Shown: positions 5,926-49,521 of the stretch, piece after piece
Layout: the number at the start of each line of letters is the position of its first letter
Position numbering within the stretch: the stretch's first letter is position 1
Assembly (NCBI RefSeq): GCF_002277955.1
Contig: NZ_CP018477.1
Span: 372,001-436,000 of the forward strand
Direction: 5' to 3'
Origin: Thermogutta terrifontis
GTDB lineage: Bacteria > Planctomycetota > Planctomycetia > Pirellulales > Thermoguttaceae
DNA: 64,000 nucleotides
Notes under the pieces: model-generated
Told to the model about the DNA's origin: nothing
The model's input: only the letters and a program-made list of their open reading frames with translations
The model's database searches: none
Made by a program: the position numbers and the translations under genes

Positions 5926-6809
5926 ACTTGACCTCCAGAAAAATCGACAGCGCGGTTAACAGGCTGTAGCCAGGGGTCTCTGCTTCTTGCGGCCCAAGAC
6001 CTATTCGTGGCTACCGGTTTGCTCTGACCAATACCCTCCTTCATTAATTAAGACGAATTCCAGGACCAATTCTTAACAAAGAATTCAAACGCCGCGGCGC
6101 CATGGTAACCGTCTCATGTGGTTTGTGAAGAGATTATTTGATAGGATTCGCTGATTAATATAGGCCATGCTAACTAGCGAGTTTTAGTTGTCAATCTAAG
6201 AAAACCGATCAGGTGAAGCGGCTCAGTCATCGCGACGTTTTCCAGACGTTATCGGAAGGGCAAAAGTGAGAACGTGTCGTAGCCGCGATTCATGAATCAC
6301 CCCCTACAAGGAGGGGCGCCCGCCGCGGCGTCCGGTGAACGTCGGAGGGGCACGCTTGTCGTGCCCGGTGAGGCGGGATGGGTAATCAATCGGTGTTCAT
6401 CGGACCCGACAAGCGGGTCCCTCCGGAAAAAACGGACGTGACAAGCACGTCCCTCCAGAACAACGGACCCGACGAGCGGGTCCCTCCGGAAAAAACGGAC
6501 GTGACAAGGACATCCCTCCAAAGGCGGACGTGGCAAGCGGGTCCCTCCAAAAGGCTGCGCCGTCGCGTCTCCAGCGGTTAATATTCTGTTAACGGCTTGA
6601 CTTCCTTGGGCGACCGATGAAAATGAATCGCTCGCTGTCTGCAAGCCCCAGTTTTGCGCGAACGGCGAAAACGAACCGAGTAATCATGCCATGTGACACT
6701 CCAAGCAAACACGTCTCCGCTGCATCTCAAAGCTGACAAAGAAACACGAATTCCCTGAAAAAGAGGAGTGAATCTACCCATGAAACGAATGCTTCCTGAG
6801 GAGCCTGCC
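5926..6809. repeat. AT-rich gap followed by palindrome mosaic, block C
   Basis: 5945-6285 is clearly more AT-rich than its surroundings and has no ORF; on the minus strand TTGACA at 6194-6189 followed by TAGCAT 16 nt later could serve the small gene at 5572-5925, but this is weak. 6285-6580 is a palindrome block with four or five ACAAG/ACGAG-loop units (GGACCCG, GGACGTG, GGACCCG and degenerate GGACGTG stems) and GGGCACGCTTGTCGTGCCC. 6580-6809 leads into alkaline phosphatase with no other feature. Confidence 0.8.
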
Positions 6810-12300: not shown

Positions 12301-15300
12301 GCGATCCATGGTGGGTTGGGCAACTCCGTAGCCTGCCGCGCGCGCCAGGCACAGGGCCCAGAAGGTCAGAGCTGACGTCCGCGAATCGGAAGCGACTTTT
12401 CTTTTGGCTCTTTCTTCCGGCAACACACATCCGATCCAGGCCCATCCGCCGTCCTCCTGCTGGCTGGCCACCAATCCGGCAATAGCAGTACGGATCCGCG
12501 CATCGATAACCGGCATCATGGAAACGTCCTGCGGAACCGCTTTGCGGAGATAATCCTGGACGACCACTGCCGTCATCAACTCCGCCACCAGCTTTTCCGC
12601 AGGAGACGAGGTTTCGATGAGAGCCAATCTGACCTGTTGGGGTGAACCCGTCACAAGGTCGAGCAGGCTTCGCTCGACGCTCGGTCCGACGAGGATTTCC
12701 ATCAACCAGGGCGAACTTCCCGCGACATTTGCCAGTTCCAGCCACGTGGTCGTGTCGCCGGTTGCAGAACCGCCGCTCGTCAGATACTCCATCACGCCCT
12801 GCGGTCGCAGCGGGATGGACTGTGTGGTGCTGTCCAGCACCTCTTGGGAGCTCGGGTCGAGGACTGCCAGATGAAACTCCACACTCTGCCGCAGGAGTTC
12901 TTCCACCTGCTCGGGTTTCTCGGCCGCCTTGAGGGCTTCGTACCATTCGGCGGGCATCTCCACCGGTACGGTGAACGTCACCGATGCAGCCCCCTTTTGC
13001 TGGAAGGTGACCCGCCGCGTATCGGTGGTGCGACGGGCACCGACGAGCCGCGTCAGCGCGACTTCCACGATGCCTGAGTCAAAACGGCCGTTGTGGAGCA
13101 CGACGGGAATCTCGACTGTATCGCCCAGCCGCAACACCCCGGGCCATTTGACCTCGGCGAAGAAATCCTTCTTCGCCTGGATGGTGATATCGTCTTCACC
13201 CACCAGGGTATCGACGGTGACCCCCTGGGCGATGAGTCGCCATGTGGTGGCCCGATCGGGAAGGGGAATCGTGAGCGTGGCTTTGCCGTCCGGCCCTGTT
13301 TCCACGGCAGGGTCCCAGAAGGCCGTTTCTGCGGCGGACGACAGCGGATAAAGCAGCGATCCTTCCCTGGTGAGCCGCTCGGCGAGTGCCGCCAGATCGC
13401 CCTTCCGCAATTGCGAGGGTCCCAGCCATTGCAGTCGTCCTCGGGCGTCCAGGACCAGGAAGTCCTGAGTCGAAGTGGCACTGATTTGCTGGAGATTGCC
13501 CTGCGTGGGAGTGAGGAATCGGCCCGCCATTCCGGTTCTTTCTTCCGCCACGCCCGCAAAGAATTTATCCATCGCCTGCTTCAGTTGCCGCTCGCCTGCC
13601 GCGTTGACGGCGGCAGCTTTCTCCATCGCTTGCTGGATCTTCAGTTCCGGCAGAGCGGGTTTGCCGTCGGTGGGCAGGCCGCGGCGGGCACGGGTATCGG
13701 CCTTCTTGGCCATTTCGACCTCGGCCAGCGGCTCGTTTGCGGTTCTCCCCAATGCCTCCACTTCCGGGATGGCTGATTGCTCCGCCAGCGCCGCCGCATC
13801 CACTGGGACTCCACCGAAGCCACCTAGCGCACCGCCCACGGGCCCCAGGGCCAATCGCGTGGCAGCCTCGTCTGCCTCGAGCTGTTCTCGCTCTTCTTCA
13901 GCAAGGAGCAGGCGGTTGATCGGGCGGGTGATTGGTTGGTAGCGGAACTCAATGGTGCTGAACGTTCGGAATGCCCCCTCCCGGGTTTCGCCGCGGAACC
14001 ATTCCAGCAGCGACGGCCCACGGCCGAATCGTTCCAGAAGCAGTGATTCAACCAGCGCCACACTGACCTGCGCGGGGATCGGTCGTCCCTGAGCGTCGGT
14101 GGTGGTCAGTGTGACTTCCAACTCGTCGCCGGGGCTGGGTGTCTTCTTCGCGGGTTGGCCCTTGATCTTCCATTCCACCTTCACCCGCAGGTCGCGCTCG
14201 ACGTCAAATACGCTCACGGCTTCGAAAAATCGTCGTGGTCGAGGCGTCACATCGGCCACCGCGTCGCCCGAGTCGGCCGATGGTCCCCCCACGAGAGCGC
14301 GATCATCCCGAATGTCGCGCATGACGGCCACGCTCAAATCAAATCGCGGCGCCATTTCCGCCGTAATTGGAATTTCCAGCTCATTATCGCCCGTCTTCAA
14401 AGGCACCAGCCGATGTCCCAAAATGTGCGCCCCCTGGAAACACACGACTCCCAGGGTCGGTTGATCTTTCCAGTGGATCCGCACGCGGGCTGTATCGCCC
14501 ACGCGGAACGTGTGCTGATCGGCGAGAATGTGCAGGCGGTCGGCGTCTTTCTCGTCGGAAACTTTGACCGCGATTTCTCGCCAGATGGGATGCCCGAAGC
14601 GGTCGGTGCCTTCTGCCCGCAAGATGTACAGGCCCCCTTCTTCCAGCCGCACGACAACCCGTGCCGTTCCATCGGACGCGGTCTCGACGGGCGTCTCGCT
14701 GACCGTCACGGTTCCCTGGACACGGCCGGCATGGGTGCGACGCATCACTTTCAGAAGGAGCTTTTCGGCGGATGGTTTCCCGGCCGCATCTTTTGTCTCC
14801 ACGCGAACCTCGAAGCTTTCGCCGGGCAGATAGACCTCGCGCGGTGTGCTGAGATGGATCGAAAATCCCTGGACAGCCAGAACAAAATTGACACCGGTGG
14901 TGAGATTTCGCCGCGGCAACACGACCGCGAAGGGAAGGACTTGCGCCTCCGAGTAATCCCGCGTGTCGAGGCTGAATCGCACCTCGCCCTTTTCGTCGGT
15001 GATCGCCGTTTGGACCGGCTCACCCGCCAGCCGATAGCGGACCTCTTCCCGACCCAGCGGTGTGCCAAAACTGAACGCCACGCGAATTATTCCCTCAATC
15101 TTTTCACCCCGATAGTACACCTGCCGTGGTGTATCGATGGTGATTTGCACCGGATCAACCTCGAACGAGGCCACCTGAAAACCACCCTGGAAAACGTGGC
15201 CGTCGCCATCGTCGGCCACCACCCGATACTGGCCGAGCGGTGCTCCCTCGGGCAGGAGAAACTGGTCATGCAGGCAGCCGTAGGAATCAAGCGTGACATC

Positions 15301-19184: not shown

Positions 19185-20154
19185 GGCACAAGCTCCCTGA
19201 AAACCGACTTATTGTTCCGCGGTCGTTTCCAAAGTTGCCGTCATTGTGGTGGAATTGAAAGGAAAAGTAAAGCGCGGGAAGAAGGAACCTATCCCCACTT
19301 TTTGGAAGGATGGTGAGAAGCGATCACGGGCCGCGAGCCTGGCGGTGTTGGGATGGTGGGTGTGTGGCGTAGGCCATGGAGTGCGGGGCTTTAGCCCCGC
19401 TTTCCGCGCGGGACTTCAGTCCCCGCCGAAGGAAAATGGTTGATCGAACGTTAAACGGTGGACGTGACAAGCACGTCCCTCCGAGAAGCGGATCGGAGGG
19501 GCACGCCGGTCCTGCCCGATGAGGAAGGATGGGGCATCAATCGGTGTTCATCGGACCTGACAAGCAGGTCCCTCCGAGAGGCGGACCTGACAAGCAGGTC
19601 CCTCCGGTATAGGTCGGAGGGGCACGCTTGTCGTGCCGGGTGAAGGCAAATGGAACATCGAACGTGGATAAGCGGACCTGACAAGCGGGTCCCTTCGAAA
19701 AAGGTCCCACCGAGAGGCGGATATATGCGGTAGGGGCAATTCATGAATTGCCCCTACCGGGGGTGCGCTTTCGTGGTTGTGGCAAAACATCGCCAACGGC
19801 AAGGTGGTGAAGGCTAAAGCCTTCACCGAAAAGCGGCGATGAATCGCCGCACTCCATGGAGTGCGGGGCTTTAGCCCCGCTTTCGGCGCGGGACTTCAGT
19901 GCCCGCCGAAGGCAATGGAACATCGAATGTTGACAAACGGACCTGACAAGCACGTCCCTCCGGAATTTTTTCGGAGGGGCATGCCTGTCCTTCCCCTGGG
20001 TCCGCTGGCGGACACTCGATGCGTTGCCTTCTGTCTCGGGCTGCGATAAAATGCGGGCAACTTTCCAGGGAGGTGCTTGTCGGTTGGCTGAGTTGATCGG
20101 GACGGGATCAGAACGGGAATGGCAGTCTCTTCTTCAGAAAGGAGGACGCAAGTC
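19185..20154. repeat. Intergenic palindrome mosaic, block D
   Basis: No gene seen. Between about 19375 and 20000: GCGGGGCTTTAGCCCCGC twice, two GGACCTGACAAGCAGGTCC units, one GGACGTG/CACGTCC unit, a mixed unit GGACCTGACAAGCGGGTCC with one mismatched pair, GGGCACGCTTGTCGTGCC, a perfect 32-bp palindrome at 19728-19759, GAAGGCTAAAGCCTTC and a GCGGCGA/TCGCCGC stem with loop TGAA. Bases 19616-19909 recur almost unchanged at 21681-21974. The ribosome-binding site AAAGGAGG for the next gene is at 20138-20144. Confidence 0.92.
19616..19909 (+). repeat. 294-bp near-identical direct repeat, copy 1
   Basis: Matches 21681-21974 with three mismatches by eye (19800, 19805, 19901). It contains five to six palindrome modules including the 32-bp palindrome and lies upstream of the cytochrome c peroxidase-like gene. 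Confidence 0.95.
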
Positions 20155-21564
20155 ATGAAACGAGTGGCCATCTCTGTGGGAATCGGGGTATTCGGTGCGA
20201 TAGGCGTTTTCCTGTTGTGTTTAAGGGCAACCGCTCTGGCGGAATCGTCTCAAAAGAAGAGCAGCTATTCGCCTGTTGTCATCGAAGAAGACTTCGAGAC
20301 GATCGTCAAACGCAAACAGGCAGAAAAACCCAAGATCCGCGAAGAACACATGCGGCTTTTGGAAGAACGTTATGACCTGAGCAACCGTCCGGTGCCCGGT
20401 GTTACAATGTCCCGCGGAAAACCGGTGCAGGGTGGTGTACGGGTCAAGTTGCCGCCGGGAGTTAACTCCTGGGAAGAGCTGGCGGCCATGTCTCCGGAAG
20501 AAATCCGCAAACGCGGCCTGTATCCGAAGGGTTTCCTCCCGCTTCCGCATCCCAATCATCGGGAAGGTGGCATGGTCTTCCCGCAGCACCACATCAACGA
20601 AATTCTCAAGCAGGAAGGCCGGGACCTCACACGGTTTGATCTCGACTTTGATTTGCCGGAACACTTCCTGCCCGAGTATCCGCCGGCGATTTATTTGACA
20701 ACGCGTCCCGATCTCGGAGACGTGTCTCAGGGCAAAGTGGTGACACTTCAGAACTACTTTGAGCTGTTCAACGGCATTCTCAATCCTAAACAGCTCGAAG
20801 GGTTGCGACTGCTCCTGACCCCCTTCCCGCAACAGCAGTTCAATGCGACCGACGACCGCAGGAGTCTCAAACCGAGCATGGGTGTCACATGTTTCGATTG
20901 CCATGTCAACGGGCACACGAATGGCGCCACGCATCTTGTCGGCGATATTCGCCCGCAGGAATTTCGGCACCGTCTGGACACGCCGTCTTTGCGGGGTGTG
21001 AACATTCAGCGGTTGTTTGGCTCGCAGCGGGCCCTTAAAACCGTGGAAGATTTCACGGAATTCGAACAGCGTGCCGCCTACTTCGATGGTGATCCAGTGA
21101 TTGCCACCAAGAAAGGTGTCAACGTTCTGGAACGCGGAAGCCAGGTCCACTTCATGGCGGAATTCATGGCCATCCTGGACTTTCCGCCAGCGCCCAAGCT
21201 CAATGTCTTCGGGTTACTTGATCCGGAAAAAGCCACGCCTTTGGAACTGCGAGGACAGGAAGTATTCTTCGGCAAGGGACGCTGCGCCACCTGTCACCTG
21301 CCGCCCTACTACACGGACAACCTCATGCACAATTTCCGTACCGAGCGATTCTTTGAGCCGCATATGGTCAATGGCCACATGATGACCGGAGACGGACCGA
21401 TCAAGACATTCCCGCTGCGAGGTCTGAAGGACTCGCCGCCGTATCTGCACGACGGTCGTCTCCTGACCATCGAGGATACGGTCGAATTCCACAATCTCGT
21501 GCTGGGCACAAAACTGACCAAGGAGGAGAAAGAGGCCTTGACGGCCTTTCTCCGATGCCTGTGA
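20155..21564 (+). CDS. Di-haem cytochrome c peroxidase/MauG-like protein
   Basis: 469 residues from the ATG at 20155, which has a very strong AAAGGAGG site; an upstream ATG at 20119 lacks one. Residues 1-30 are a signal peptide or anchor (VAISVGIGVFGAIGVFLLCL). Two c-type haem motifs, C246-FDC-H and C377-ATC-H, lie 131 residues apart, followed by Met-rich HMVNGHMMTGDG (possible distal ligand) and the family ending TFPLRGLKDSPPYLHDGR. About 210 residues before the first haem are extra compared with ordinary bacterial CcpA (about 330 residues) and match no domain I know. Role: periplasmic peroxide reduction or protein oxidation, by family. Confidence 0.9.
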   Translation: MKRVAISVGIGVFGAIGVFLLCLRATALAESSQKKSSYSPVVIEEDFETIVKRKQAEKPKIREEHMRLLEERYDLSNRPVPGVTMSRGKPVQGGVRVKLPPGVNSWEELAAMSPEEIRKRGLYPKGFLPLPHPNHREGGMVFPQHHINEILKQEGRDLTRFDLDFDLPEHFLPEYPPAIYLTTRPDLGDVSQGKVVTLQNYFELFNGILNPKQLEGLRLLLTPFPQQQFNATDDRRSLKPSMGVTCFDCHVNGHTNGATHLVGDIRPQEFRHRLDTPSLRGVNIQRLFGSQRALKTVEDFTEFEQRAAYFDGDPVIATKKGVNVLERGSQVHFMAEFMAILDFPPAPKLNVFGLLDPEKATPLELRGQEVFFGKGRCATCHLPPYYTDNLMHNFRTERFFEPHMVNGHMMTGDGPIKTFPLRGLKDSPPYLHDGRLLTIEDTVEFHNLVLGTKLTKEEKEALTAFLRCL

Positions 21565-22708
21565 TCCAGTATGCTGGTCACCTCGCTAGGACTCACCTAT
21601 ACACCCGGCCAAAGTTGTGGATTATTCACACGTTGTCGGTAAAGCGGACCTGACAAGCAGGTCCCTCCGAGAAATCGTTTGGAGGGGCACGCTTGTCGTG
21701 CCGGGTGAAGGCAAATGGAACATCGAACGTGGATAAGCGGACCTGACAAGCGGGTCCCTTCGAAAAAGGTCCCACCGAGAGGCGGATATATGCGGTAGGG
21801 GCAATTCATGAATTGCCCCTACCGGGGGTGCGCTTTCGTGGTTGTGGCAAAACATCGCCAACGGTAAGGCGGTGAAGGCTAAAGCCTTCACCGAAAAGCG
21901 GCGATGAATCGCCGCACTCCATGGAGTGCGGGGCTTTAGCCCCGCTTTCGGCGCGGGACTTCAGTCCCCGCCGAAAGGCAATGGATGATCAAAGGTTAAA
22001 CGATGGACCTGACAAGCAGGTCCCTTCGGTATAGGTCGGAGGGGCACGCTTGTCGTACCCGGTGAATGGGACGGGTGATTGATCGATGTTGATCGGACCT
22101 GACAAGCAGGTCCCTCCGATCAGAGAAACGGCCCTGATAGGTCGGTCCCTCCGCGAGGTGTCTCCCAGAATCCCGGCGGGGCACGCTTGTCGTGCCTGAT
22201 GAGGAAGGATGGGGCATCAATCGGTGTTCATCGGACCCGAGAAGCAGGTCCCTCCGAAAAAGGTCCCACCGAGAGGCGAACACATGCGGTAGGGGCGATT
22301 CATGAAATACCCCTGTAAGACATTGCGCTCGGGGTAGGTCACGGGTTTTTCCAAAAGCGCGGCGGGGTCGGAAAAGCAACCGGTTGACAGTCGCCGTACT
22401 CTGTGTAAACTTGCCCATAGTTTCCGCCGTGCATCTTTTCCGATGCAAATCAGTTTGACCATTGCACGGTATGAGGGGAATAAAATATTGAGTTTGCGAC
22501 GGGGAATGAAACGTATCGATGAAGGGGCCATTCTGATATTGCCTCTTCTATTGACGAATGCAAGATAGCGTGCGGCCCGAGGGGCTTTTTGAGGGAAATT
22601 CGTTGATAAACATGGGCTGAAAGTTGCTGGACTATCCAGTGACGTTGTTTTTGCAACGGGAGCGTCTGCTTGAGTGCTAAAAGTTGATAAGCGCGATAGG
22701 AGATACCG
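21565..22708. repeat. Intergenic palindrome mosaic, block E, plus 380 bp of unique sequence
   Basis: 21640-22320 is repeat mosaic, including the 294-bp copy, several GGACCTGACAAGCAGGTCC units and a decayed version of the TTCATGAA palindrome at about 22290-22312. 22330-22708 is unique, less GC-rich and without an ORF; TTGACA at 22384-22389 followed after 16 nt by TAAACT could be a promoter for the CD225 gene, though it lies about 300 bp from the start. TAGGAG before 22709 is the ribosome-binding site. Confidence 0.85.
21681..21974 (+). repeat. 294-bp near-identical direct repeat, copy 2
   Basis: Second copy, offset 2065 bp from the first, downstream of the cytochrome c peroxidase-like gene. 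Same orientation; the three differences fall outside the main stems of the 32-bp palindrome. Confidence 0.95.
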
Positions 22709-23110
22709 ATGTACTGTTCGAAATGTGGTGCCCTCAACGCCGATAATGCTGTTGTGTGCACGCAGTGCGGCCAGCTCCTGCAAAATTATTCAGCGCAGCA
22801 GCGGGTACCCCCTTATCCGCCGCCTTATGCCCAGGCCTATCCACCGCCCACCTACCAACATGTTCCCAATTATCTTCCGTGGGCCATCCTGGTGACCCTC
22901 TTGTGCTGTCTGCCATTTGGTATTGTGGCGATCGTCTATTCGGTGCAGGCAAACAGCGCGGCCAAGAGTGGCAATTATGCCCAGGCCATGGAAAATGTTA
23001 AAAAGGCCAGCTTCTGGACGTGGCTTTCCTTCGGAATCGGGCTTGCAGCAACGCTGGCTTATTTGTTTCTCGTCGTCCTTGCTCAGATGGCTCAGGGCCA
23101 TGGGGGTTGA
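22709..23110 (+). CDS. Zinc-ribbon CD225/dispanin-like membrane protein
   Basis: 133 residues. MYCSKCGALNADNAVVCTQCGQ is a four-Cys zinc ribbon; residues 30-55 are Pro/Tyr-rich (PPYPPPYAQAYPPP). Residues 57-125 match the CD225 (interferon-induced transmembrane, dispanin) layout: first membrane segment AILVTLLCCLPFGIVAIVY, the cytoplasmic loop NSAAKSGNYAQAMENVKKASFW with the conserved G-x-Y-x-x-A, and a second membrane segment. Bacterial members are of unknown function. The stop overlaps the start of the DUF2752 gene by 11 bases, which suggests translational coupling. Confidence 0.9.
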   Translation: MYCSKCGALNADNAVVCTQCGQLLQNYSAQQRVPPYPPPYAQAYPPPTYQHVPNYLPWAILVTLLCCLPFGIVAIVYSVQANSAAKSGNYAQAMENVKKASFWTWLSFGIGLAATLAYLFLVVLAQMAQGHGG

Positions 23111-23501
23111 GCACCACGGCGGTCCGTTCTCATTTCTGCCATTGCCCGCGCGCGTTGCCGTCGGGTTTTCTGTTGCTGGGGCAGGAGTATTTCTCCTTTA
23201 CCACTTCGACCCGGCGAAGAGTGGGCTCTTTCCACCGTGTCCTTTTCACTATCTCACCGGCATGTACTGTCCGGGATGCGGTTCGCTAAGAGCCACGCAT
23301 GCCCTGCTCCATGCGCAGTTTCTTCGCGCTGTGGATCTCAACCCACTCATGGTACTTATGTTGCCCGTCGTGGTCCTTTTGTTCCTGCGGCCGAACTGGT
23401 TCAAACAACCGTGGCGGGGCTGGGGATTGCTGGGGCTCATCACAGCCTATTGGGTTCTGCGTAATATTCCAGTGTTTCCCTTTTCCCTGCTTGCGCCATG
23501 A
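23100..23501 (+). CDS. DUF2752 membrane protein
   Basis: 133 residues from the ATG at 23100, which overlaps the upstream stop. The open frame continues further left but the domain begins here. After a first membrane helix, the conserved DUF2752 core CPFHYLTGMYCPGCGSLRA-H-LLH is present, with a second helix (MVLMLPVVVLLFL) and a third (WGLLGLITAYWVL). The CPGCG motif resembles a metal site but no biochemical role is known for the family. The overlap with the CD225-like gene points to a joint membrane role. Confidence 0.9.
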   Translation: MGVEHHGGPFSFLPLPARVAVGFSVAGAGVFLLYHFDPAKSGLFPPCPFHYLTGMYCPGCGSLRATHALLHAQFLRAVDLNPLMVLMLPVVVLLFLRPNWFKQPWRGWGLLGLITAYWVLRNIPVFPFSLLAP

Positions 23502-24369
23502 GCCACGGCGACACGCACCCGGGCACCCGGCGAAAGGGTGCGGATTGTCCAAATGTTATTGATAGAAGACGCCCGACGAGCGGGGCCCTGCGAGATATGG
23601 AGTGCGGGGCTTTAGCCCCGCTTTCGGCGCGGGACTTTAGTCCCCGCCGAAAGGCCACGGATGATCCAACGTTGAAAGACGGACGTGACGAGCACGTCCC
23701 TCCGATTTTGTTGGGCCATTCATGAATTGCCCCTACCAGGGGCGCGCTTCCGTGGTTGCGGCAAAACACCGCCATCGGCAAGGTGGTGAAGGCTGAAGCC
23801 TTCACCGGAAAGCGGCGATAAATCGCCGCACTCCATATGGAGTGCGGGGCTTTAGCCCCGCTTTCGCCGCGGGACTTCAGTCCCCGCCGAAAGGCAATGG
23901 AACATCGAATGTTGACAAACGGACCTGACAAGCGGGTCCCTCCGAAAAAGGTGCCTCCGAAAAGCGGACCTGACAAGCAGGCCCCTCCGGAAAAGGTCTT
24001 TTCGGGAAGAACGGACCCGACGAGCGGGTCCCTCCGAAGCGGGTCCCGTCGAAAAAGGTCTCTCCGAAGCTCGGAGGGGCACGCTTGTCGTGCCCGGGGA
24101 GAGGGAATGGGCCATCGAGCGGTGTTGATCGGACCTGACAAGCGGGTCCCACCGGAAAAGGTCTTTTCGGAAAGAACGGACGTGACAAGCACGTCCCTCC
24201 GATGTTGTCGGGGCCATTCGTGAATTGTCCCTACCGGGGCCCGGGTGTCGCGGAGCGCGGCTTTTCGTAACCAGCTCCAAGAGTTGGCCATGCAGCATCG
24301 CGCGGCCGCGTGTTCCGGCCTTCATGCCCGGTGCGAAGGTGCGGGAGCACGTAATTTTGAAAAGCGAGG
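23502..24369. repeat. Intergenic palindrome mosaic, block F
   Basis: No gene seen. About 23575-24245 contains GCGGGGCTTTAGCCCCGC twice, GAAGGCTGAAGCCTTC, a GCGGCGA/TCGCCGC stem with loop TAAA, units with GGACGTG, GGACCTG and GGACCCG stems and ACAAG/ACGAG loops, GGGCACGCTTGTCGTGCCC, and two decayed TTCATGAA palindromes. 24246-24369 is unique sequence leading to the end of the TolC-like gene. Confidence 0.9.
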
Positions 24370-30453: not shown

Positions 30454-30651
30454 CATGGTCCTCCGTTCGGAAAACTGTCGATTCCGACTCGGATGGCGGC
30501 CCGACCACCCGCAAAAAACCTGCAGTTTTGCAACTGCACCCTTCGAGATGTTATCCCACAGCGTGATCCAATGAGGAAAAACTGATAGGCTTATTTTAAA
30601 AGTATCGCTGTTTGGACACAACCCAAGCCAGATGGAAAGGCTTTCCTCTTT

Positions 30652-44423: not shown

Positions 44424-45410
44424 CAGGCAGTGGATTTACCCCAGGGCCGGGGTGGGGTCCGCTTTTCTGGACGGCCTGGTTCCACCCGGGCCGACAGCCG
44501 ACGTGGAAGTCGGCCCTCGATTGGATGCGGTCGAGGGTCGGTTTCCACCGCGACCGGTAGTCGGTTTCGGATCGGATCAACGCCAAGGTGGTGAAGGCTC
44601 AAGCCTTCACCGAAAAGCGGCGATGAATCGCCGCACTCCATGGAGTGCGGGGCTTCCGCCCCGCTTTCCGCGCGGGACTTCAGTTCCCGCCGGAGCCAAA
44701 TGGATCATCGAATGTTGATAAACGGACCTGACGAGCGGGTCCCTCCGAGAAATCGTCCGGAGGGGCACGCTTGTCGTGCCCGCAAGACGAAGACGAAATG
44801 GATATTCCAGCGCTGACAAGCGGACCTGACGAGCAGGTCCCTCCGAGCAATCGTTCGGAGGGGCACGCTTGTCGTGCCCGGAGAACCGAGGTGGATGATC
44901 CAACGTCAAACGGCGGACGTGACAAGCACGTCCCTCCGAATACGCACCCGACAAACACGTCCCTCCGAAAACGGACCGCACTCGCCGGCTGAGGTCGGGG
45001 AGGCCAAACTGAAACGTGGACGCCGTCAAGAAAACAAATCACCCCGGCTGACCGTTTCTGACTTCCTGTCGAGTCATCTCGCGTGAAACCTGGGAGCGGC
45101 GTCGGTCGGTTGGTGGCGTGGAGGATGTCGGTTCCTCTGGGCTCCCGATGATTTCCGTCAGTGACTCGGCAAGGCGTCTTTCAGGTAACCGGGGTGATCA
45201 CACTGGGGCTTTTCTGTCAGGTGGGACGAACCGTTGGACTGAGTTGCTTATCTCACAGGTTGCATCGGGCAGGCTCGTCGTTTGCTCTTCGATGCTGTTG
45301 ACTCAAGGTGGGAATTTCTCAGGCAGGAATTTTCAGGTGGGCAATTGAGGTAGGATTTGGAGGTGGGATTGAGGAAGGTTGTTGTTGCAGGGGATCGGTC
45401 TTGACTTGAC
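44424..45410. repeat. Palindrome mosaic block I, then 400 bp of G/T-rich stem-rich sequence
   Basis: 44455-44975: GAAGGCTCAAGCCTTC (loop TCAA, an off-type), a GCGGCGA/TCGCCGC stem with loop TGAA, GCGGGGCTTCCGCCCCGC, units GGACCTGACGAGCGGGTCC (one mismatched pair), GGACCTGACGAGCAGGTCC and GGACGTGACAAGCACGTCC, and two GGGCACGCTTGTCGTGCCC. 45090-45400 has no ORF and is G/T-rich on the plus strand; it holds stems GGGAGC 45092-45097 with 45141-45146, GAGG 45121-45124 with 45134-45137, TGAGT 45240-45244 with 45301-45305, and GCATCG 45262-45267 with 45290-45295. Confidence 0.8.
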
Positions 45411-46151
45411 TCAGTTGTTCATGGCCACGTTGTTCATTTGCGGCGGGTAGAGGGCCTCGTTCCGCAGACCGTCCAGGAATTTTTTGCCGGCCAGGTATTC
45501 CGCAGGGCTGACCCTGGTGATCTCTTCTCGGAGCATGCTGCTGAGGATCTCCACATTCTTGCGGACCTGGCTGTAGAAGGGGCTGGCGGCGCCATGGTCG
45601 CTGGGTTGTCGGGCGGCGAACAGTTCCTCAATTGCCGCTCGGTACTGGGCATAGCGCTCACCCTGGAGGACGGCAGGCCAGTGGATCGTGTGAGTCACAG
45701 GATCCAGTTCAGCAGCGGTGAGACGTTGGGGCTTGACCTGAACGGCGGCCGTTTGCTGGGCAGGATGCTTGCTTTCGCCCGGGCTGGGAGTGGGCTTGTT
45801 CTGCAGCGCCAGATAGGTATCCCGAGCTTGCTTGCGATCCCAGTACGCCTTGGCATATTTCAGCGAGTTGTCGATCTGGACGGCGTTGCCTTCCAGATGA
45901 ACCTTGCGAGCCTGGGCAAGACTTACCTGGGCATCGGCCTGCGCTTTCACCATGGCCGCCTGGGCCTGGAGAAGGGTTGCATACGCCTGAATGAGGGCCG
46001 CCTGACCTTTGGACAGTTCCATCTGGGACGCGGCATAGACGTAGGTCTCGTTTTGCCACGCCTGGGGCACGGCTGCCTGACCGAATGCCTTGCCCGCAAC
46101 CATTCCGAACACGCACACACAAACGGCGGAGAGGGTGACGAAACGTGTCAT
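45411..46151 (-). CDS. Secreted Ala/Gln-rich helical protein of unknown function
   Basis: 246 residues, signal peptide at 1-25 (FVTLSAVCVCVFGMVAGKAFGQ). Residues 30-125 are a long helix with heptad-like Ala and Gln (GQAALIQAYATLLQAQAAMVKAQADAQVSLAQA), then a Pro-rich linker and a second domain from about 150 (LTAAELDPVTHTIHWPAVLQGERYAQYR). I have the impression of similar planctomycete hypothetical proteins but cannot name the family. ATG at 46151 has AGGAG eight bases upstream. It is isolated: stem-rich non-coding DNA lies on both sides. Confidence 0.8.
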   Translation of the reverse strand: MTRFVTLSAVCVCVFGMVAGKAFGQAAVPQAWQNETYVYAASQMELSKGQAALIQAYATLLQAQAAMVKAQADAQVSLAQARKVHLEGNAVQIDNSLKYAKAYWDRKQARDTYLALQNKPTPSPGESKHPAQQTAAVQVKPQRLTAAELDPVTHTIHWPAVLQGERYAQYRAAIEELFAARQPSDHGAASPFYSQVRKNVEILSSMLREEITRVSPAEYLAGKKFLDGLRNEALYPPQMNNVAMNN

Positions 46152-46250
46152 GGTACAGACTCCTTATCCTGGAAGGTTCCACAAACACCGAGACGTAACT
46201 TCACACAACCAAAAACCAGTGGTTCCGGAAAATTCGCTGCAGTCTTGACA

Positions 46251-46270
46251 TCTAGGGTGAATACCCTAGA
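46251..46270. promoter_or_regulatory. Perfect 8-bp inverted repeat upstream of the secreted helical protein
   Basis: TCTAGGGT, four-base centre GAAT, ACCCTAGA, about 100 bp before the start of the minus-strand gene ending at 46151. A regulator-binding site is possible. TTGACA at 46245-46250 lies next to it on the plus strand but no -10 box follows at the right distance. Confidence 0.4.
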
Positions 46271-46365
46271 TCTGCCGCGCACTTTTTCTAGGGGAGGGTG
46301 AGCGTACTGCTCAAATGTGTTTCAGGGGGGACTTCTTGGAAGGATCGCAGGTGGGACTTCTACTT

Positions 46366-46989
46366 GGTGGGTGCGAGGGTACTTCCTCACTGATGATGTG
46401 GGGGGCCTTTATCACGGTAGGTTCAGGCACACCCTGGGTTGGAACATGTCATCGCTTCTACCGCTGTGGTGGTCACCTCCTTTCTACCATCAGTTAAGAG
46501 ACTCCGCTTTTGGCCTTCTCACGAGGCCCTGCCATCGAGCGGCAATCAGGGGCTCATCTCTCGGCAGGGACTGGTTGTCTCACATAGGGGTTAAGTGTTC
46601 GTGTGTTCACTATTGCGGGTCGGCCGTCGGCATCTGGGAAACGGCCTGGTTTTGTTTCGAGCGTCGACCTGGGAGGCCGCCGGACCCACGACAGCCTCCC
46701 AGGGCGGAGGCGGTGCCTCAGGGGGTCGGTCCTGGGCGGGACTTTGTTTGACCGACCGGCGGGAAGCGGATGCTCTTCGCATCCTGTGGCATGGAACGTG
46801 TTTTCACACTGATCTGGTGGGTTGGTCTCGCACACACGGGCAGATTCTTTGCGGCGAGACCTGCTGTCTCCAACTTGCTTCAGGTGGGCTTCTGCGGATA
46901 GGTTACCATTTTCAACCGCAGAACGTGTGTAACTGGTGGGTCAGGGGGGAAAGGTTTTTTGGCGGGAGCCACGCCTTTGAGGTCGTGGC
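46366..46989 (+). ncRNA. Candidate large structured RNA, family unknown
   Basis: At least twelve stems by eye: 46375-46378/46385-46388; 46390-46395/46488-46493 enclosing 46415-46420/46458-46463; 46512-46515/46525-46528; 46529-46533/46563-46567; 46622-46627/46641-46646; 46668-46677/46694-46703 (10 bp, CCTGGGAGGC); 46707-46711/46715-46719; 46724-46731/46750-46757 (GGTCGGTC); 46768-46773/46779-46784; 46824-46831/46854-46861 (GGTCTCGC); 46890-46897/46916-46923 (TTCTGCGG); 46968-46973/46984-46989. The plus strand is chosen because it is G/T-rich and T-runs follow at about 47090. RNase P, tmRNA, SRP and 6S signatures were looked for and not seen. No start or end is fixed. Confidence 0.45.
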
Positions 46990-48131
46990 CGGTTCTTGTA
47001 TTGGTGTAAACTGTTGAGGGTTGTCGTGTTCACCGTTGCGAGGCGATGGAGGATTTACAGGATCACGAGCTTTGCCGCAAGCCCAATTTTTCGTTTTTTG
47101 CTGCCAGGGCTTATTTCGGCGTTCCTCGATTTCAACCCTCCATCCATATTTATCGGCAAGATCGATTCAGGCGTTTCGTCTTTTGTTTTCGGCGGGTTCG
47201 TCTTTTCCCGTCGTCCTTCTATCGTACAACCGGCCGGAACTTTTACCGAAACTTGTCTTTGGCCGCAACAGCAGTTTTTCGAGAAATCGCCGTATGCCGT
47301 GCCTGTTGTCTTGTAAGGGCCATTCATGAATTGCCCCTGCCGAGACGCGAGTGAATTGGGTTGATTATCCAAGGTTGAATGCGGACCTGACAAGCAGGTC
47401 CCTCCGAGAAATCGTTTGGAGGGGCACGCTTGTCGTGCCCGCCGAAAGCGAATCCATGATCCGATTCTGGAAAGCGGACCTGACAAACTGGTCCCTCCGA
47501 ATGAATACGGACGTGACAAGCACGTCCCTCCGGGCTGATGAGAAGGTCCGCGACCCCGTCGGTAGAGGAACAGGGGGTGACTTGCACGCGGGCGCGTTTC
47601 GGCGGAACATCGCTTTTTCGACGATCGGGTTGCAGCCGACCGGCCAATGCGCGCCTCGAGACACATGCGTTGTGGACGGTATCAGCTTTAGCAAATTGCA
47701 GGCCAAATGTCCGTAATTCCCCCCACGCTGGTGGACCTGATTGGCTCAAAACTCGGAAAAAGGGCTGACTTTTGCGTCACAACCGGTAAAATTGAACGGC
47801 GAGGGACGATACAATGGTGAAGCAAGCAGACACAAAAATTACCCCGCCTCAAACAATCCCGCCCTGGTTCAGCACCATTGACGGATGCGACACGGTGCTA
47901 TCATTAGGGTCCATCGCCAGCAGTGAGAACGGAGCGGTGCGACGGACCATCGGATAAGTCGGTTGAGTGAAGTCAGAAGGGGAAATCGGGCTAAATCAGT
48001 TGGCTCAATGAGGAGTTGCCCACGCTGCCTCAAGAGAGATTGACCCTCCGTCACGGACGACGCTGAATGGCTGGATGCCAGCCCGCCGGGTTGTCACAAC
48101 CCACCATGGTCCGAGCGAGAGGAGTCATACC

Positions 48132-48707
48132 ATGGGAGCCGTCGCCGATTATATTTCCGAAGTGCGGGGTTGGACCGAGTCTTCTACTTCGCAGGCGACC
48201 AGGGACCGGACAGAAGAATTTCTGGGGTATTTCACCCAATATCATGGGCGGATATTCGGATACATCTTCAGTATGGTGCCAAACGAGCAGGACGCACGGG
48301 ACATTTTTCAGAAGGTGTGTCTTTTGCTCTGGCAGAAATTTGAGAGTTTCGATCGGGAAGCGGATTTCTTCGCCTGGGCCTGTGGCATGGCCTACAATGA
48401 GGTGAGGAATTACTTCCGCGTCAATTCGCGTTCGCGCCTCTCGTTTAGCCAGGAACTCCTGGATACAATGGCGCAAGAGCGCGAAGATCCCGAAGAAAGC
48501 GACCGACGCCTGGAAGTCCTCCGCCGCTGCCTGGCGGAACTTCCGCAGCATGAGCGGGACCTGCTGCTGGAAGTCTATGCGGAAGGTCGCTCAATCCGGG
48601 AAATCGCGGAGCGACGCGGGAAGGCAGCGCAAACGCTGTACAACCGCCTCAACCTCATCCGTCGGAAACTGTTCGCTGAGGTTCAACAGGCCCTGGCCGA
48701 AAACTGA
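48132..48707 (+). CDS. ECF-type sigma-70 factor
   Basis: 191 residues from the ATG at 48132 (GAGAGGAG seven bases ahead; frame open 19 codons further). Region 2: FTQYHGRIFGYIFSMVPNEQDARDIFQKVCLLLWQKFESFD with ACGMAYNEVRNYFR. Region 4: LAELPQHERDLLLEVYAEGRSIREIAERRGKAAQTLYNRLNLIRRKL, a helix-turn-helix. The phrasing fits the Rhodopirellula/Verrucomicrobium-type ECF group. It probably works with the membrane protein encoded next. Confidence 0.93.
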   Translation: MGAVADYISEVRGWTESSTSQATRDRTEEFLGYFTQYHGRIFGYIFSMVPNEQDARDIFQKVCLLLWQKFESFDREADFFAWACGMAYNEVRNYFRVNSRSRLSFSQELLDTMAQEREDPEESDRRLEVLRRCLAELPQHERDLLLEVYAEGRSIREIAERRGKAAQTLYNRLNLIRRKLFAEVQQALAEN

Positions 48708-48820
48708 CGTGGATGCTCACTCTGCTGGATGAGCCATTTGCGAGAGGACACCGCGCTTGTGAAGCACGCAGCAGAGGGTGATCTCGTCGGTCGGCCAATT
48801 TGAAAGATCCCGATCGAGCC

Positions 48821-49270
48821 ATGCTCTCCAGCAAAATCCGCGATGAACTTCTGACTCTTCTGGATGCCCTCGTGAATGAGACAATCACCCCCGAGGAGCA
48901 CCGTCGGCTGGAAAGTCTGCTGCTGGCAGACGGGGAGGCCCGCGAGTTGTTCCGGCAATATGTGGGCCTGCACTGCCAGCTCCGCCAGTTGGCCCAGAGT
49001 TGGGCAGAGGAAAAACTGTTGCGACTGACCGAGGCGATCGAGACGTCGGCCAATTCATCGGCCCCCATGCCCACCCCGGATAGCCCACGGCCCGGCCTCA
49101 TCTACGGAGTGATTCTCAGTCTGCTGGTGGGCTTCGCAGCGGGAGTCCTCTGGTTCCGACACCTCACTGCGGACAATCCAGTTGTCTCGCCAGAGAATTG
49201 CTCCCGATCAGCCTCTCCGGCGAGTCACATCCCTCCGCCACCAGAGCGTCTTCCCCATGATCGCCCGTGA
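48821..49270 (+). CDS. Probable membrane anti-sigma partner
   Basis: 149 residues from the ATG at 48821; a TTG at 48800 is in frame. The first 65 residues (LLTLLDALVNETITPEEHRRLESLLLADGEARELFRQYVGLHCQLRQL) match the N-terminal helical region seen in planctomycete FecR-like proteins next to ECF sigma genes. One membrane helix at about 93-113 (LIYGVILSLLVGFAAGVLWF) is followed by only 35 residues, Pro/Ser-rich, so the FecR/lectin-like outer domain usually present is missing. It starts 113 bp after the sigma gene. Anti-sigma action is inferred from position and architecture. Confidence 0.75.
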   Translation: MLSSKIRDELLTLLDALVNETITPEEHRRLESLLLADGEARELFRQYVGLHCQLRQLAQSWAEEKLLRLTEAIETSANSSAPMPTPDSPRPGLIYGVILSLLVGFAAGVLWFRHLTADNPVVSPENCSRSASPASHIPPPPERLPHDRP

Positions 49271-49299
49271 CCTGTTCCGCTCCATGCACGGCAGCCGCT

Positions 49300-49521
49300 C
49301 TAGGGGATAAACCCGACCGCCTGAAGATCACTGATAATCCCGGACCACAGCCCGTTCGTCTGGCTTCCCACCTGACTGATAGCGCCAATCATCACGGCCA
49401 GGAGTAGGGCCAGCATAACGGCGTACTCGACCGTCGTGGCGCCGTGCTCCTCGCAAATGAATTGGCTTTCTCGCCGGAACAAGGGAGGTTTTTGCCAAAG
49501 TGGAAGACGAGATTGACGCAT
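49300..49521 (-). CDS. Flp/Fap type IVb prepilin
   Basis: 73 residues. The prepilin motif is CEEHG27-A28-T-T-V-E32-Y33 followed by a hydrophobic helix (AVMLALLLAVMIGAISQVG): cleavage after Gly27 leaves Glu at +5 and Tyr at +6, the Flp hallmark. The leader is 27 residues, longer than usual. No tad assembly gene (CpaA/TadV peptidase, TadA ATPase, secretin) lies in the window, so assembly must depend on genes elsewhere. Confidence 0.88.
   Translation of the reverse strand: MRQSRLPLWQKPPLFRRESQFICEEHGATTVEYAVMLALLLAVMIGAISQVGSQTNGLWSGIISDLQAVGFIP

Follow-up and report, generated by a model that had tools for sequence, protein, structure and literature searches.

The window, by which we mean the whole stretch of 64,000 nt that was analysed, lies in the genome of the hot-spring planctomycete Thermogutta terrifontis R1 (G000; one contig, 4,810,751 bases). 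The interval under study, 46366-46989, falls within a 1.2-kb gap upstream of a minus-strand gene for a secreted-type protein, and a plus-strand gene for an ECF sigma factor lies on the far side of the gap. This gene order is common to G000 and two draft genomes of the same genus, G001, which is the sister species, and G003. The 246-aa protein belonged to no Pfam or NCBIfam family and had matches in 22 of 37 genomes, its own included; the gene was not matched in the incomplete congener G002 (87%). Next to the ECF sigma factor gene, an ORF without known family in 48800-49521 of the window contains a hydrophobic stretch and was judged by eye to be a possible anti-sigma protein, and a small minus-strand ORF at 49300-49521 appeared, also by eye, Flp-type pilin-like. 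None of the top-ranked papers in literature searches, supplementary tables aside, concerned the locus. The features described below are collected in Table 1.

Table 1. Positions of the features at the locus, in window coordinates
Feature	Position	Strand	Remark
Promoter-like TTGTCA-18-GATAAT	47364..47393	-	would start a minus-strand transcript near 47357; both hexamers also in G001
Putative leader RNA of 1.2 kb, same sense as the gene	46152..47357	-	extent inferred; encloses 46366-46989
Hairpins	46968-46989, 46824-46861	-	consensus-chosen stems
Motif copies (TCCYACCTGAA-like)	46940-46950, 46879-46889, 46812-46822	-	
Hairpin	46890-46923	-	consensus-chosen stem; one double compensatory change and one broken pair in G001
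Segment of 171 nt	46640..46810	-	identical in G000 and G001
Hairpins in the 171-nt segment	46798-46809, 46768-46784, 46724-46757, 46707-46719, 46657-46667	-	
15-bp hairpin within the 171-nt segment	46668-46703	-	
Hairpins	46622-46646, 46527-46569	-	consensus-chosen stems
AGAAAGGAGGTGA, 13-nt perfect complement of the 16S rRNA 3' tail	46473..46485	-	
Motif copies	46346-46356, 46321-46331	-	
Palindrome TCTAGGGTGAATACCCTAGA	46251..46270	.	TCTAGTGTAAACACACTAGA in G003; DNA operator or RNA hairpin
Gene for 246-aa protein	45411..46151	-	apparent signal peptide (judged by eye)
Six motif copies in a tandem-like array past the gene	45303..45379	-	5' ends 45379, 45368, 45355, 45342, 45328, 45313
Further motif copy	45216..45226	-	
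Non-coding segment of 183 nt, downstream of the gene	45026..45208	-	identical in G000 and G001 (identity runs)
Further, weak motif copy	44989..44999	-	
Terminator-like hairpin with T-run	44617..44634	-	possible transcript end

Coding status was examined by comparison with G001, whose alignment to G000 at this locus falls into two main pieces (89.5% and 84.9% identity). The minus-strand frame 45414-46163 showed coding-type substitutions, with 8, 8 and 45 changes at the three codon positions and 40 synonymous and 17 non-synonymous codons. None of the other frames of at least 50 codons in 44950-47407 did so: they contained indels or stops in G001, had no third-position bias, mirrored the gene or had too few changes, and the minus-strand frame 45197-45042, with zero changes, was uninformative. 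A protein-coding reading of 46366-46989 was therefore unsupported by the codon-position and frame tests, and the preliminary description, which had seen no credible ORF there, was borne out. The longest runs identical between G000 and G001 were both non-coding, the 183-nt and 171-nt segments, and they adjoined blocks of 66-80% identity. The 183-nt segment was unchanged, compared with differences at 61 of 750 sites in the gene, and over 44970-45410 a fold signal was absent on both strands. The G003 blastn alignment comprised only the two genes and 39 nt of the trailer array (45329-45367), and the upstream gap was unaligned. These results indicate that the locus is a real, conserved and unusual non-coding element.

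The plus strand had been taken for the RNA strand, partly from its G/T-richness, which equals A/C-richness of the minus strand. Folding did not support this choice. The plus-strand RNA of 46366-46989 was like its dinucleotide-preserving shuffles (z -0.03; 9 of 20 at least as stable), whereas the minus-strand RNA gave a z of -3.17, with 0 of 20 shuffles as stable. In 200-nt windows starting at 46550, 46650 and 46750, the minus-strand z was -2.6, -3.3 and -3.4 in G000 and -3.5, -4.5 and -1.4 in G001, and the plus-strand z lay between -1.2 and 0.7. Such a z by itself is, however, no rarity in this repeat-rich region: a value below -3 was reached by 13 of 256 sampled 200-nt windows, with the locus among them at rank 12. 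Two-species consensus folding of G000 and G001, with 48 column shuffles per region and strand, gave a z for 46366-46989 of -5.66 on the minus strand (0 of 48 shuffles as stable) versus -1.73 on the plus strand. The corresponding values were -4.30 and -1.74 for 46811-47050, in which the identical core is left out, and -3.30 and -1.53 for 47051-47357; the part 46366-46640, which contains the 16S-tail complement, gave a weak signal (-1.12 and -0.17), and the gene, used as control, gave -0.74 and 0.81. Two G-U pairs of the 15-bp stem on the minus strand are C-A mismatches on the plus strand. These results suggest that the strand first proposed is wrong and that the element probably works from the minus strand, where the locus likely forms hairpins.

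The support for individual stems was more limited. Among the 85 pairs of 12 consensus-drawn hairpins, 80 were unchanged in G001, two had one-sided and two had two-sided changes, and one was broken, a conservation that arises partly by selection because the stems were picked from the two-species consensus. A stem-versus-loop test on consensus-chosen stems (3/72 versus 36/90 sites changed, p 2.7e-8) was likewise rejected as circular. With stems taken from G000 only, paired and unpaired sites in 46366-46989 did not differ significantly in conservation on either strand (p>0.05 in six of six tests; on the minus strand at span 80, 30/162 paired versus 53/226 unpaired sites changed, p 0.26); over 46160-47357, some tests gave p<0.05 on both strands. 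Covariation on the minus strand of 46366-46989 did not rise above column shuffles (3 double changes versus a shuffled mean of 4.4), which leaves the hairpins unproven, and power was low with two alignable sequences. The nested plus-strand stems named in the preliminary description are present in the sequence, but they lose 3/6 and 2/6 pairs in G001, so the multi-branched plus-strand fold built on them is not conserved. In the G003 leader, the sense strand reached a z of -2.0 at best and the opposite strand -3.7 and -3.0 in two windows (L066 2950-3149 and 4150-4349, respectively), the second of which holds the palindrome.

A covariance model of the 155-nt core (R1) matched 3 of 60 relatives, and the matches in G000 and G001 were accepted. 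The third, in G016 (30.8 bits, E 1.5e-4 by a rough calibration), depends chiefly on a single 19-nt resemblance and was rejected, and an R1 match at 14468-14582 of the window (15.9 bits) looks like chance. As DNA, the core matched 4 of 119 family genomes, G063 and G005 with pieces of 27-30 nt. Its distribution is demonstrable to one genus-level group at most. No Rfam 15 family reached its cut-off in 46366-46989, and when the limit was relaxed to E<=5 for 44900-47450, the one match, to a microRNA family (E=3.2), was taken as chance; with the conservation in G001, this upholds the earlier view as far as a sizeable, conserved non-coding element without an Rfam match is concerned. The likeness to OLE, GOLLD and ROOL drawn at the same time fared worse. 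GOLLD and ROOL usually neighbour a tRNA, phage or plasmid, and OLE a membrane-protein partner gene. The window contains no tRNA, and blastn at E<=1e-5 matched it to neither phage nor plasmid; the lack of such blastn matches also led us to reject a mobile element. Membership of the OLE/GOLLD/ROOL class is not supported.

Two other features were noted in the window. An nhaA-I riboswitch-type RNA (RF03057, 50.5 bits, cut-off 37) lies at 30491-30541 on the minus strand; the accessible text of the T. terrifontis genome paper lists c-di-GMP-I, cobalamin and fluoride riboswitches only (PMC5673643). Dispersed hairpin repeats (GGACCTGACAAGCAGGTCCCTCCG, GGGGCAATTCATGAATTGCCCC, gtgcggggctttagccccgctttc unit) occupy many intergenic gaps (6401-6551, 19460-24220, 44620-44990 and 47380-47540), and windows in them also gave the strongest fold z-scores. 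In a search of the genome, 39 of 40 scored matches (259 candidates) were short dispersed pieces from the low-hundreds end of the query.

The 16S-tail complement, AGAAAGGAGGTGA, constitutes an extended Shine-Dalgarno (SD) sequence. It was present at this locus in all three genomes searched (G000 and the drafts G001 and G003), and its other exact copies were in the 16S gene of each genome, as identified by Rfam, and at one further G000 site, the sole other non-16S copy there (C1:527009-527021, L087). It precedes the start codon by 322, 322 and 358 nt in G000, G001 and G003, respectively, the G003 start codon being taken as L066 4351. In G000 and G001, the next ATG, GTG or TTG follows 23 nt past the AGGAGG of AGAAAGGAGGTGA. 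In G003, an ATG stands 3 nt past the AGGAGG and opens 16 codons, so the SD of this genome may simply serve a short ORF. The SD was predicted to be inaccessible in all three genomes; its predicted partner in G000 is 46496-46502 (7 pairs, of which, in G001, one shows a compatible double change, two show a compatible single change and none is broken).

Closer to the gene lies the palindrome, which precedes the start codon by 100, 100 and 104 nt in G000, G001 and G003. The form TCTAGNGTNNNNACNCTAGA was found in 3 of 60 genomes, at a single place in each and always at this locus, and a plus-strand TTGACA (46245-46250) directly adjoins it. G003 has a second near-copy at about L066 3948-3968 (G003:C115), just upstream of its 16S-tail complement.

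The third shared signal is a TCCYACCTGAA-like motif, with 13 sense sites in each of G000, G001 and G003, distributed over both gene flanks, versus one site on the opposite strand of each and 1.8-2.5 sense sites expected per locus from the rest of the window (134 matches in 121.8 kb of background strand length), figures that are descriptive because motif and threshold were derived from these same loci. At a stricter threshold, 10, 11 and 10 sense sites versus 0, 0 and 1 opposite sites were found in G000, G001 and G003. The heptamer CCCACCT occurred 6, 9 and 5 times in these genomes' loci versus 0.2-0.3 expected. Among the 30 protein-family loci, which are those obtained for 30 of 39 protein matches, only the three of the genus were rich in the motif when the stricter threshold was applied, and 0-3 sites per strand were counted in the remaining 27, some of which had truncated flanks. 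Part of the trailer array was also called by TRF (45306-45346, period 15), and the array is present in G003 too. The motif sites were predicted to be more accessible in the sense RNA than equally C-rich control sites, with mean percentiles of 0.80/0.79/0.86 versus 0.67/0.67/0.61; the antisense values were 0.39/0.59/0.69. Pairs of the form AGGTRGGN{3,10}AGGTRGG numbered 2 versus 7 for the backwards control in G000, 3 versus 4 in G001 and 5 versus 2 in G003, and are notable for concentration alone, with 2/2, 2/3 and 4/5 of the places at this locus. Complementarity of the motif to rRNA, AGGTRGG occurring once in 16S and at four places in 23S, was dropped, a 7-mer being weak evidence. The apparent isolation of the interval is not supported: the element stands upstream of a conserved protein gene, in the same sense, and the shared signals occur in both gene flanks.

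The ends of a putative transcript were sought in 44500-48200. Promoter-like sites numbered 2 versus 1.1 expected in shuffles, which is weak evidence by itself, and terminator-like sites 7 versus 4.5, also weak. In this region, the minus strand carries no terminator-like site from the structured part up to the gene; farther downstream there is a single one, listed in Table 1. The signals share the gene's strand and position, and no terminator-like site intervenes; a single long mRNA that begins with a structured leader would account for this most simply. We favour, with a probability of roughly 0.45, the reading that the interval forms the central part of a long minus-strand 5' leader of the mRNA for the secreted-type 246-aa protein, and the element is probably cis-acting. 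The non-coding status, the conservation and the better predicted folding of the minus strand are directly supported, as is the presence in three genomes of the SD, the palindrome and the motif array.

Under the leader reading, a minus-strand transcript would start near 47357 and pass through the hairpin string, an SD without a nearby start codon, the palindrome, the gene and a trailer rich in motif copies. The 13-nt SD, predicted to be enclosed in a small hairpin, would on opening pair with the 16S tail and retain a 30S subunit within the leader, where the docking could serve as a standby or protection site. The motif array suggests that a single factor binds at many places: the ~13 mostly single-stranded UCCYACCUGAA-like sites in leader and trailer might bind a single protein or small RNA, and binding of this factor and of 30S could couple the expression or stability of the mRNA to both. 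A bolder proposal, which we consider rather unlikely, is a Thermogutta-specific multivalent mRNA in which ~13 motif copies in both UTRs and the near-unique 16S-tail complement would gather 30S subunits and an RNA-binding factor, acting as an mRNA-embedded sponge or translation hub.

The main rival, unlikely in our judgement but ahead of the other alternatives, is a stand-alone minus-strand RNA that would act in trans by titrating, in the manner of CsrB-type sponges, a motif-binding protein or a small RNA, or else 30S subunits, with the gene merely downstream. The predicted hairpin string with motif copies in its linkers, the identical 171-nt core, the minus-strand fold and the 16S-tail complement are in keeping with it. 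However, no minus-strand terminator-like site separates the structured part from the gene, the motif copies continue past the gene in G000, G001 and G003, and the SD and palindrome hold their distance from the start codon. A further rival is a DNA-level element, in which the palindrome would be an operator, the AGGTRGG repeats sites for a DNA-binding protein and the RNA fold incidental. We find this more doubtful than the trans-acting RNA, even with a perfect palindrome found at this locus only, next to the plus-strand TTGACA, and repeats nearly all in one orientation in both gene flanks: the fold signal is strand-specific, the SD is an RNA signal on the same strand, the array copies, spaced 11-15 nt apart, are not in helical phase, and the ECF sigma factor is the sole transcription regulator among the neighbouring genes looked at.

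Of slimmer probability still is fast-evolving intergenic filler, whose identical patches would stem from recent recombination between G000 and G001 and whose repeats from drift or replication slippage. The juxtaposition of the identical 171- and 183-nt runs with blocks of 66-80% identity, a genome rich in dispersed repeats and the weak covariation would all agree with such an origin, but recombination between G000 and G001 leaves unexplained the SD, palindrome and motif array of G003, in which blastn left the upstream gap unaligned. The plus-strand giant RNA of the OLE/GOLLD/ROOL kind, as originally proposed, appears very improbable. Size, non-coding status and the plus-strand TTGACA are compatible with it, and against these stand the plus-strand z-scores (-0.03 for the single sequence and -1.73 for the consensus), the named stems broken in G001, the lack of an Rfam match and the very narrow distribution.

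If the leader reading is true, the locus would represent a Planctomycetota regulatory leader with an extended SD off the start codon, a locus-specific palindrome and a motif in both gene flanks. It offers precise, testable sites in a cultivated thermophile for which RNA-seq of trehalose and xanthan cultures has been published (PMC5673643, in its accessible text). Ordinary homology searches would miss such a leader because its signals persist while the sequence between them turns over.

Several known systems resemble parts of the element. The OLE, GOLLD and ROOL RNAs, which as a class are described as forming homo-oligomeric complexes by cryo-EM (PMC12286853, in the text available), are like it large, non-coding and rich in predicted stems. 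The Thermogutta element differs from them in having no Rfam match, a better predicted fold on the other strand and a core in two genomes only (2 of 60 relatives and 2 of 119 family genomes). It shares with sponge RNAs of the CsrB/RsmZ type a string of hairpins and many copies of a short motif, 13 in Thermogutta, accessible by prediction. In CsrB-type sponge RNAs, GGA motifs in hairpin loops bind CsrA; the Thermogutta motif, in contrast, is UCCYACCUGAA-like, mostly unpaired and located in both gene flanks.

The closest parallels to the SD are found in mRNA leaders. In the cry3A 5' mRNA stabiliser (STAB-SD) of Bacillus thuringiensis, as described in the available part of the source, a leader SD pairs with the 16S tail without a translation start, and the bound 30S subunit blocks RNase J1 (PMC4113751). 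The likeness lies in an SD-like sequence within a long 5' leader, which in Thermogutta is putative; the absence of a start codon at normal spacing is seen in G000 and G001 and not in G003. Compared with the cry3A SD near -129, that of Thermogutta lies 322-358 nt upstream, is base-paired by prediction and occurs together with a motif array. RNase J (TIGR00649), the enzyme in the best-known mechanism of an SD lacking a start codon, was found in none of the three genomes, whereas 13 of 14 control genomes were matched, 9 of them over the cut-off. The RNase J version of STAB-SD was thus rejected, and the benefit of the SD, if it docks 30S, would be another, namely standby, shielding from an endonuclease or a hairpin-melting switch. 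The first of these recalls tisB, in which, according to the accessible text of PMC7708055, standby docking takes place upstream of the translated start, at a distance of about 100 nt or more. Both would place a ribosome docking site far upstream, that of Thermogutta being putative; tisB does so with a single-stranded standby region and 5' structure, and Thermogutta, if the SD has this function, with an extended SD.
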